Shown here: in pieces, positions 17,721-19,694 of the stretch
Numbering within the stretch: position 1 is the first letter of the stretch
Layout: each line of letters begins with the position of its first letter
Origin: an uncultured Saprospiraceae bacterium
GTDB taxonomy: Bacteria; Bacteroidota; Bacteroidia; Chitinophagales; Saprospiraceae
Assembly (NCBI GenBank): GCA_937980645.1
Contig: CALJPQ010000011.1
Coordinates: forward strand, 124,001 to 188,000
DNA length: 64,000 nucleotides
Reading direction: 5' to 3'
Program-made: the position numbers and the translations under genes
The notes under the pieces: model-generated
The model's database searches: none
Told to the model about the DNA's origin: nothing
Seen by the model: only the letters and a program-made list of their open reading frames with translations

Positions 17721-18791
17721 ATGAAAAAAACGCCCTACCTGCGCGGACGCGGTGCGCAAATCAACCCATCCTCTCCGTACGAAAAGGTCGTGCGCGACGA
17801 GCAGCCGCTCGATTGGGCGCTGCGCGAAGCCGAATGGGAAACCGATGACCTGCGCACCGAGTACCTAGAGACGCACCCCAAAACCATCCTCAACCGCGTG
17901 GAAAGCCCCGACATTCCTTCGGAGTGGAGCCTCAACCCCTACCAGGGCTGCGAGCACGGCTGCGTCTATTGCTACGCGCGCAACACGCACCCTTACTGGG
18001 GCTTCAGCGCCGGGCTGGACTTTGAGCGCAAAATCCTGGTGAAACGCAATGCCGCCGAGCTGCTCGAAGCCGCCCTCAAGAAGAAGACCTGGAAAGCCTC
18101 GCCCGTCATGTTTGCCGGCAACACCGACATTTACCAGCCGGCCGAGCGGCGCTTTCGCATCACGCGCGCCTGTCTGGAAGTGTTCTGGCGCTATCGGCAT
18201 CCGGTGGGCATCATTACCAAAAACAGCCTCATCCTGCGCGACCTCGACCTGCTGCAAGCGCTGGCCGCCGAGCGATTGGTGCACGTGGCCATCAGCCTGA
18301 CCACCCTGCAGGAAGAACTGCGGCAATTCCTCGAGCCGCGTACGGCCACGGTGGCGCAGCGCCTGCGCACCATCGAAACCCTCTCAGCCCATGGCGTACC
18401 GGTCTTCGCCATGCTGGCGCCCATCATCCCGGGCCTCAACGACGCCGAAATCCTGTCCATGGCCCAGGCCGCCGCTGAACGCGGTGCTCTGGGCTTGGGC
18501 TACACCCTCGTACGCCTCAACGGCGATGTGGCCGCCATCTTTGAAGACTGGCTGCGCAAAAACCTGCCCGATCGCGCCGACAGGGTGCTCAACAACATCC
18601 GCCAGACGCACAGCGGAAACTTGCACGACCACCGAAGCGGCACCCGCATGCGCGGCGAAGGCCCCGTGGCCGACATCATTCGCGAGCAGTTCCGACTGGC
18701 ACGGCATCGCTTTTTTGCCTCCCGGCAAATGCCGCCCTACAACTTAGACCTGCACGAACAGTATAAAAATCCGCAACTGCGGCTATTCTAA
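17721..18791 (+). CDS. PA0069-type radical SAM protein
   Basis: A 356-residue radical SAM enzyme of the SPL-like PA0069 family. The cluster-binding motif is C-EHG-C-VY-C within NPYQGCEHGCVYCYARNTH, the CX3CX2C spacing of radical SAM enzymes. The following HPYWGFSAGLDFERKILVK and the C-terminal RTHSGNLHDHRSGTRMRGEG-like block (here RQTHSGNLHDHRSGTRMRGE) are family hallmarks. The substrate is unknown; spore photoproduct lyase itself is not expected in this phylum. A dispersed repeat lies directly before its start. The stop overlaps the end of the leftward candidate RNA terminator. Confidence 0.9.
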   Translation: MKKTPYLRGRGAQINPSSPYEKVVRDEQPLDWALREAEWETDDLRTEYLETHPKTILNRVESPDIPSEWSLNPYQGCEHGCVYCYARNTHPYWGFSAGLDFERKILVKRNAAELLEAALKKKTWKASPVMFAGNTDIYQPAERRFRITRACLEVFWRYRHPVGIITKNSLILRDLDLLQALAAERLVHVAISLTTLQEELRQFLEPRTATVAQRLRTIETLSAHGVPVFAMLAPIIPGLNDAEILSMAQAAAERGALGLGYTLVRLNGDVAAIFEDWLRKNLPDRADRVLNNIRQTHSGNLHDHRSGTRMRGEGPVADIIREQFRLARHRFFASRQMPPYNLDLHEQYKNPQLRLF

Positions 18792-19041
18792 AAGAAAAAG
18801 CCCCACACCGCGAGCCTGACCGGAGGGGGCTGACCATGAGATTATAACGGCGCACCGCCGCCTTGACGCAGGAACTCCACTTGGGGCATAACCTCGGAGT
18901 GGCGAATGCGACCTGGTACGGGTCGTAAGAGCGGATTAAAGGTGTAAGAAAATGTACTTTGGAATCGGAAAACGGCGGTTGGGAAAGAGGGAGGGCAAAA
19001 CCAAAAAAATGAAGGATTAGGAAGAATAGGGCTCGAAAGCA
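18790..19041 (-). ncRNA. Candidate non-coding RNA of about 250 nt
   Basis: A leftward transcription unit is suggested by a near-perfect Bacteroidota promoter (19047-19076) and an intrinsic terminator at its far end. The terminator is AGCCCC/GGGGCT (18799-18831) followed on the minus strand by TTTTTCTTTT. Inside are hairpins CGACC/GGUCG, ACUCC/GGAGU and CGGCG/CGCCG. A 66-codon GTG-initiated frame spans it, and a 15-codon ATG frame (MPQVEFLRQGGGAPL) lies near its 3' part; neither resembles a known protein. I compared it with what I know of RNase P RNA, tmRNA and SRP RNA and saw no diagnostic core; 6S RNA cannot be excluded. This accounts for the 390-base gap between the radical SAM and carbonic anhydrase genes. 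Confidence 0.42.
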
Positions 19042-19046
19042 CGGCA

Positions 19047-19076
19047 CAAAGGTACGCGGCAATTGGAAAGAAACAA
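19047..19076 (-). promoter_or_regulatory. Promoter TTG-N19-TACCTTTG of the candidate RNA
   Basis: On the minus strand TTG (19074-19076) is separated by exactly 19 bases from TACCTTTG (19047-19054). This is the best consensus promoter I found in the window, and no convincing gene lies downstream of it. Confidence 0.65.
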
Positions 19077-19181: not shown

Positions 19182-19694
19182 CTATTGGAACCAGCTGGCG
19201 TAGAACACGTAGTTGTTGGCGATGCGCTGGATCTGGCCCTGGAAGAGTTCGGGCGTGAGGTCTTTGACGCGCCGGGCGGGCACGCCGGCATAGACGCCAT
19301 TGGCCTGGCAGACGGTGTTTTCCAATACGACGGCGCCGGCGGCGATGAGGCAGTTTTCTTCTACCACAGCCTGGTCCATGATGATGGCGCCCATGCCTAC
19401 AAGGACGTTGTCGTGCAGGGTACAGCCGTGCACGATGGCGCGGTGGCCGATACTGACGTTGTTGCCTATGGTGGTGCCGCACTTCTGGTAAGTACCGTGC
19501 AGGATGGCGCCGTCCTGGATGTTGACCTTGTTGCCCATGCGGATGAAGTTGACGTCGCCGCGCACGACGGCCTGAAACCACACGGAGCAGTCGTCGCCCA
19601 TGACCACATCGCCGATGATGGTAGCGTTTTCGGCCAGGAAGCAGTTCTGGCCAAATTGGGGCTGGATGCCGCGACAGGGAAGGATGAGGGCCAT
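19182..19694 (-). CDS. Gamma-carbonic-anhydrase-family hexapeptide protein
   Basis: A 170-residue left-handed beta-helix protein of the gamma-CA/YrdA family. Hexapeptide turns run through most of the chain (ATIIGDVVMGDDCSVWF, VNIQDGAILHGT). The zinc-ligand histidines are in ILHGT and in SIGHRAIVHGC, and the conserved PARRVKDLTPE block is near the C-terminus. It may hydrate CO2, though many members have no measured activity. It lies alone on the minus strand with AT-rich sequence upstream holding TACCTTTT-like elements. Confidence 0.92.
   Translation of the reverse strand: MALILPCRGIQPQFGQNCFLAENATIIGDVVMGDDCSVWFQAVVRGDVNFIRMGNKVNIQDGAILHGTYQKCGTTIGNNVSIGHRAIVHGCTLHDNVLVGMGAIIMDQAVVEENCLIAAGAVVLENTVCQANGVYAGVPARRVKDLTPELFQGQIQRIANNYVFYASWFQ

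Follow-up and report, generated by a model that had tools for sequence, protein, structure and literature searches.

The minus strand of the analysed DNA almost certainly carries a real and conserved RNA gene of the Saprospiraceae, here called RNA-1. Close to its 3' end RNA-1 contains 12 nt, UAUAAUCUCAUG, which are the exact reverse complement of CAUGAGAUUAUA in a second, multi-copy small RNA (RNA-2). The two RNAs in all likelihood pair. With rather less assurance we lean towards the view that RNA-1 is a target-mimic sponge for RNA-2. In the following, the window is the whole 64-kb stretch of DNA that was analysed; genomes are labeled G and loci L.

The initial annotation had described a discrete structured RNA of about 250 nt with its own promoter and terminator. 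Both elements are present (Table 1). A TTG-N19-TACCTTTG promoter points leftward on the minus strand, and the unit is closed by a hairpin followed by a U-rich sequence. PMC7366714 gives TAnnTTTG / TTTG as the consensus of sigma-ABfr promoters. RNA-1 would be transcribed from the window's promoter, with a 5' end probably about 5 nt past the -7 box and a 3' end within the U run. The promoter pattern by itself is within chance; it has a single exact match in the window, where 0.40 are expected, and at least one match occurs in 32 of 100 shuffles. The same holds for the single-sequence fold of RNA-1, which has a z of +1.28, with 183 of 200 shuffles equally or more stable. Because promoter and fold are each within chance, the claim for RNA-1 needed conservation, which exists. 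The "several perfect hairpins" noted earlier in this region are weak alone, since the fold is no better than that of shuffles; the helices covary among the copies, and the description of a discrete structured RNA with its own promoter and terminator is supported.

Table 1. Features of the RNA-1 locus and its neighbours in window coordinates.
Feature	Position	Strand	Basis
Promoter: TTG (-33), 19-base spacer, TACCTTTG (-7 box)	19047..19076	-	Pattern scan; promoter kept in 28 of 36 copies
RNA-1 transcript (predicted ends)	18790..19042	-	Promoter and terminator positions; 3' element in 36 of 42 genus genomes
5' pyrimidine-rich motif UUCUUCCUAAUCC (UUUUAAUCC in other lineages)	19014..19026	-	Alignments
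Conserved block UUUCCCAACCGCC (CUCCCAACCG in other lineages)	18974..18986	-	Alignments
Helix 2, 5' arm, CCGAUUCCAAAG	18957..18968	-	5 of 6 helix 2 pairs changed on both sides
Helix 2, 3' arm, CUUUAAUC	18934..18941	-	Covariation count
Small hairpin GACC-CGUACCA-GGUC of the window's own lineage	18910..18924	-	Lineage consensus fold
Pairing site UAUAAUCUCAUG, putative start-codon mimic, exact complement of RNA-2 seed CAUGAGAUUAUA	18835..18846	-	Sequence comparison
Intrinsic terminator hairpin, arms AGCCCC...GGGGCU, loop strongly conserved (CCGG-NNN-GGCUCGCGG)	18799..18831	-	Alignment, covariation count
Terminator U run, T5CT4	18790..18799	-	Sequence
Radical SAM protein gene, convergent neighbour, ends at RNA-1 terminator, outside the system	17721..18791	+	ORF list
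Hexapeptide-repeat protein gene, upstream, neighbour only	19182..19694	-	ORF list

Conservation in close relatives, on which the initial annotation had made its proposal depend, was found with two queries. By BLAST, a 451-base region gave matches in 22 of 40 genomes (own genome included), all of them from one genus. A query of 96 bases from the 3' part matched 36 of the 42 genomes of this genus, again including the window's own, and 27 of the 29 genomes of good quality, with one main match per genome. Among 33 contigs the named records are metagenome-assembled genomes of Saprospiraceae, Saprospirales, Chitinophagales or Bacteroidota. The promoter is also retained: TTG-N18-20-TAnnTTTG is present in 28 of the 36 distinct copies, where the distance from the -7 box down to the 3' motif is 147-269 nt. 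Of the remaining eight copies, four have TAnnTTTG without TTG, two lack it (L018, L026) and two are cut at an edge (L028, L035). In G020, G021, G022 and G024 the match to the radical SAM gene lies on contigs other than that of the RNA-1 element; hence, RNA-1 is not bound to the genes that flank it in the window. The 96-base query gave no match in six of the 42 genus genomes (G001, G004, G018, G045, G049 and G051), two of which are of good quality; all six contain RNA-2. The reverse is true for G010, in which RNA-1 is present and RNA-2 was not found by BLAST, in the fetched locus or in a 12-mer search. Altogether RNA-1 occurs in 36, RNA-2 in 41 and both together in 35 of the 42 genus genomes.

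Compensatory changes, the other mark of a structured RNA to be expected among relatives, were counted with a covariance model (R1) built, together with alignment A2, from 12 RNA-1 copies. From 48 sources R1 matched 36 copies (alignment A3); the remaining 12, in which the motif belongs to different RNAs, were unmatched. The motif alignment of RNA-1 took 32 of the 36 copies, with L018, L026, L028 and L035 left out. In the R1-matched alignment 93.4% of the cells pair. Changes on both sides were seen in 11 of 23 pairs (shuffles 4.4 ± 1.3, slid controls 2-9) and in 37 cells (shuffles 8.5, slid controls 4-17); the covariation score is 0.134, versus 0.059 in shuffles and at most 0.037 in slid controls, all of these figures leaning towards structure because the alignment was fitted to it. 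The covarying helices are 1, 2 and 4. In the terminator helix (helix 6) six of seven pairs are invariant, and the strong conservation of the terminator loop exceeds the need of an ordinary terminator. In the window's own lineage (L001-L004) the 3' end is kept while the 5' half has diverged. The 12-nt site UAUAAUCUCAUG, which lies directly before the terminator, is among the most constant parts of RNA-1. A CCAU/AUGG hairpin around the site fits several lineages and fails in others; it was omitted from the model.

Two rival explanations for such an element are a short protein gene and a known housekeeping RNA. A frame of 66 codons is open at 18842-19042, and frames to the same stop extend over 79 codons in L002 and 63 codons in L004, as they might in a short coding gene; a peptide could also start from the AUG of the pairing site. 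However, the N-terminal halves of these frames are altered by frame shifts, so that L002 and L004 each have a different one. The third of the nearest copies, L003, has 23 codons, and five copies from other lineages have only 4-18 codons before the same stop. The conserved coding frame that the initial annotation had counted as evidence against an RNA was thus looked for in relatives and is not there. Downstream of the site AUG, indels of 1-2 bases shift the frame and the terminator follows. We give a coding function, in either form, scarcely any credence. The lack of conserved frames agrees with what is expected of a bacterial RNA sponge, which is non-coding.

A known type of housekeeping RNA (6S, tmRNA, RNase P or SRP RNA) that has diverged beyond the reach of Rfam would account for the one main match in 36 of 42 genus genomes. 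It would also fit the single-sequence fold of the window copy, which joins the 5' and 3' ends, and the fact that no 6S RNA was found in the window's own genome: RF00013 gave only a place with 13.3 bits (E 4.2), away from RNA-1. Like 6S RNA (RF00013) and 6S-Flavo (RF01685), RNA-1 is a stand-alone RNA of roughly similar size, but it matches neither of the two, nor Flavo-1. Rfam gave no match inside RNA-1 or in the RNA-1 copies of 17 relatives, and the consensus folds of seven lineages have no long 6S-like hairpin. The 6S-Flavo model matched 0 of 24 genomes; the controls were equally silent, so that this result does not establish an absence of 6S RNA. No tmRNA was detected by ARAGORN or Rfam, and the RNA-1 stretch had no Rfam match to RNase P RNA or SRP RNA, in keeping with the missing diagnostic cores reported before. 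The suggestion of a housekeeping RNA, possibly 6S, is not supported, and we consider it very improbable. Two Rfam matches at E 5-8 lie upstream of RNA-1 on the opposite strand. Weak Rfam matches below the gathering scores, in the window to AgvB and PreQ1 and in the relatives to microRNA and further families, were taken as chance on their scores. In G025, a genome of the same order, Flavo-1 (RF01705) has 124 matches at E ≤ 1 (L055) and behaves as a dispersed repeat.

The alternative offered by the initial annotation, a regulatory RNA, gains support from the match between RNA-1 and the seed of RNA-2. The pattern TATAATCTCATG occurs 168 times in the 42 genus genomes, versus 7 times for a reversed control pattern. 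In the window's own genome the 12-mer is found exactly twice, where we estimate about 0.5 by chance; one occurrence is in RNA-1 and the other, in complementary orientation, in RNA-2 (C15:37718). The 12-mer is kept in 19 of 20 RNA-1 loci fetched by BLAST, a count that is not independent of the site because most of the matches span it. The exception, L017, has UGUAAUCUCAUG; this A-to-G change still allows pairing by G.U with the two unchanged RNA-2 copies of that genome. The 12-bp duplex has a computed energy of -13.3 kcal/mol, and after opening of the RNA-1 site -5.4 to -12.1 kcal/mol remain in the 31 copies with an exact site; these net values assume a perfect duplex, and that of L017 was not used. 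Opening the seed takes 0.57 kcal/mol in the own-genome RNA-2, less than for any other sampled window. Over 91 RNA-2 copies the median cost is 2.2 kcal/mol, and only six have the seed as their most open sampled window, which makes the accessibility of the seed moderate and not exceptional. Together with the co-occurrence in 35 of 42 genus genomes, the exact complementarity to an sRNA seed gives RNA-1 two properties of a sponge, and it suggests that the duplex would form in the cell. A comparison of both full-length RNAs by RNAduplex, in which 3 of 1000 shuffles were as good or better, ignores internal folding and was set aside. By eye, UUUCCCG in RNA-1 and CGGGAAA in RNA-2, as well as the two terminator loops, are candidates for further pairing.

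RNA-2 was found by searching with the 12-mer motif of RNA-1, so that selection is built in. Its expected size is ~125 nt. Judged by eye, it consists of a TTTG-N19-CACTTTTG promoter with a TCAACAAA box upstream, a 5' stem, the seed CUUUUCAUGAGAUUAUA and a terminator. The seed appears single-stranded by eye and is opposite in orientation to the RNA-1 site. The invariance of 96 RNA-2 fragments that were chosen by motif proves nothing; a fairer count comes from places fetched by BLAST. Of 32 further places obtained in this way, 30 have the core; it occurs there in 39 copies, of which 38 show CAUGAGAUUAUA exactly and one differs by a single change. The 3' part of RNA-2 was detected by BLAST in 41 of the 42 genus genomes and in all 29 of good quality, commonly in multiple and often tandem copies. 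Only matches beyond query position 130 were counted and matches to flanking genes were excluded; G010 was discarded because its 25-base match lies in DNA without the core. Rfam gave no match in the three RNA-2 loci tested; the FopS model is perhaps absent from the copy of Rfam used. The loci L110 / L273 (own genome, C15 about 37700), L112, L119 and L113, among others, have a conserved seed UUUUCAUGAGAUUAUA, and the TCAACAAA box recurs upstream of the RNA-2 promoter. G005 (L113) has four RNA-2 3' units with a repeat of ~129 bases. The Saprospiraceae genera g38, g17 and g24 also have RNA-2-like RNAs, in which the seed is the same and is soon followed by a terminator.

The seed has a further set of complementary sequences at the starts of protein genes. 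Three kinds of g38 gene have the complement of the seed across the start codon: three genomes show it for an HYR-domain protein, two for a di-haem cytochrome c peroxidase and one for a third protein that looks secreted by eye; the Pfam search covered one HYR-domain member and one peroxidase member. Pairing within the same genome extends over 12-21 contiguous bases, and seven pairs give duplexes of -21 to -28 kcal/mol, values that stand without a shuffled control. In the window's genus, 19 genomes were searched for near-matches (up to 2 mismatches in 17). At the motif ATG, 13 of the 36 near-matches outside RNA-2, a set that includes L190, begin a frame with 59 or more codons; among other ATGs of this DNA, 5 of 85 do so (p 7e-5). 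The threshold of 59 codons was set after seeing the data; thresholds of 50, 60 and 70 give p 2e-4, 2e-4 and 8e-5, and all of these p-values are generous because some of the places are orthologues (L243 and L256). Three of the 13 frames encode proteins related by BLASTP to the g38 HYR protein (E 3e-4 to 1e-7); its homologues thus have near-matches over the start codon in three genomes of the window's genus as well. In the genome of the window itself no mRNA target with an exact match was seen. Signal peptides, as well as the promoters of RNA-2 and of other carriers, were judged by eye. From the start-codon complementarity in g38 and the near-matches in the genus it appears most likely that the seed base-pairs at translation start sites, among them several that belong to secreted proteins.

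The simplest account of these data is that RNA-2 is a base-pairing regulator and that RNA-1 and other carriers of the site titrate it. A primary-sigma promoter would drive RNA-1 and a terminator of its own would stop it; immediately ahead of this terminator RNA-1 would display a 12-nt mimic of an mRNA translation start (UAUAAUCUCAUG). RNA-2 would pair through its seed CUUUUCAUGAGAUUAUA with the start-codon regions of mRNAs for secreted or surface proteins and, most likely, block their translation. By binding the same seed RNA-1 would titrate RNA-2 and act as an RNA sponge. A start-like sequence that has no conserved frame and lies directly before a terminator suggests that RNA-1 is a target mimic; the match of this site to the seed of a multi-copy RNA suggests that RNA-1 probably soaks up RNA-2. 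The translational block, and the direction in which RNA-1 titrates RNA-2 rather than the reverse, are both predicted from the sequences. Against the sponge account stand the six genomes with RNA-2 and no RNA-1, the reverse situation in G010 and the genera g17 and g24, in which no other exact carrier was found. Furthermore, this best explanation covers only 12-13 nt of the 250-nt RNA-1 and leaves its conserved 5' motifs and terminator loop without a role.

The same pair of RNAs could work with RNA-1 as the regulated partner; RNA-2 would then control the stability or activity of RNA-1, and the conserved 5' domain would do the work. Such a role is suited to an RNA that is long, has one main match per genome and keeps conserved blocks and covarying helices outside the site, and the multi-copy RNA-2 with its recurrent TCAACAAA box (by eye) looks like a conditional regulator. 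Yet the site copies mRNA start regions that resemble RNA-2 targets, and several unrelated RNAs carry it, as decoys would; we regard RNA-1 as a target of RNA-2 as unlikely. It is still less probable that the 12-nt block is a binding site for a shared RNA- or DNA-binding protein and that the opposite orientations are incidental. Strict conservation and the presence of the block in several unrelated transcripts are what a protein site would produce. However, RNA-1 and RNA-2 carry the block on opposite strands, the L017 variant retains pairing by G.U, and in g38 the complementarity to mRNA starts extends past the 12-mer.

The sponge reading can be widened to the other RNAs that carry the motif. 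A short RNA with the motif follows a sigma-54-like TGGCAC-N-GGC box in G005, G007, G009, G022, G052 and G054. In G006, G016, G043 and G048 the motif occurs in an RNA that may have a closing stem, and a further non-coding carrier is found in G042 and G049. A tentative and somewhat doubtful extension would be a hub in Saprospiraceae, in which a multi-copy sRNA that blocks the start codons of secreted surface proteins is held in check by several unrelated mimic RNAs; RNA-1, the RNAs with sigma-54-like promoters and others would be these mimics, on the same tentative footing. In g17 (two genomes) and g24 (one genome), the RNA-2-like RNA is present and no other exact carrier of the site was found.

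Individual carriers have features of their own. The short RNA candidates at L073, L086, L087, L092, L093, L094 and L177 (perhaps also L185) combine the sigma-54-like box with UUUAUAAUCUCAUG near the 5' end and a terminator. The non-coding carriers L175, L180, L186 and L189 (and L172) have UUUUAAUC and UAUAAUCUCAUGACUGCUUUGG; in the first four a distant CCAAAGAAGUCAU could pair with the motif region. In L173 and L183 the motif occurs with UUUUUAAUCC or UUUUAAUCC, and with UAUAAUCUCAUGUGUAAAAG, after a TATTTTTG promoter-like box. The window's own genome has AGTAATCTCATGAAAAG after TTTTTTAATCC at C14:87558 (L271), a possible motif carrier with a similar site in G002 (L270). At L188, found in one genome, the motif covers the beginning of an HTH-like frame; at L199 it covers that of a secreted-looking frame, and this genome has no RNA-2-like match. 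No recognisable RNA or start codon was seen at L171, L176, L178 and L187, and L191-L194, matches to the motif from other families of the order, appear to be chance.

RNA-1 and RNA-2 add two RNA families, neither of which had a match in the Rfam searches made; functionally they would be new families of a kind already described, on an unusual scaffold and in an unusual network. A conserved sponge candidate, together with a seed common to sRNAs, decoys and mRNA starts over several genera, would provide a concrete entry point, and the pairing network suggests that secreted surface proteins of a widespread environmental family are under such control. To our knowledge, little is known about how the sRNAs of Bacteroidota are switched off, and a sponge layer of this kind would be the first proposed for this phylum. 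In the open-access literature searched, which was covered in part, no Bacteroidota sponge and no Saprospiraceae sRNA is named.

The closest known systems in function are QrrX, CrfA and the FopS sRNAs. QrrX of Vibrio cholerae is a sponge that pairs with the conserved domain of Qrr1-4 and destabilises these sRNAs (PMC9732341). RNA-1 is likewise non-coding and matches, as a complement, the conserved pairing region of an sRNA family with several copies; the corresponding effect of RNA-1 on RNA-2 is a prediction. The two have no known sequence relation, and RNA-1 belongs to Bacteroidota and has covarying helices. CrfA of Caulobacter, a sponge of SisA-D induced by carbon starvation (PMC12559287), resembles RNA-1 in that one RNA opposes a family of sibling sRNAs, as we propose for RNA-1. 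It differs in phylum and in its induction, where RNA-1 has a plain primary-sigma promoter. Bacteroides lacks classical sRNA chaperones, and the FopS sRNAs of Bacteroides thetaiotaomicron are multi-copy and bind near the start codons of SusC mRNAs (PMC11697453). They are countered by the protein RbpB, and the word "sponge" does not appear in the main text of that paper (PMC11697453). Judged from its sequence, RNA-2 is of the same type: like FopS / GibS it is multi-copy and short, has a seed predicted to pair at the start codons of surface-protein mRNAs and has its terminator directly behind the seed region. It differs from them by its 5' stem, its tandem copies and the lack of an Rfam match in three loci. 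In its anatomy RNA-1 thus appears similar to QrrX and CrfA, and RNA-2 to FopS, a similarity that we understand as likeness rather than as homology.
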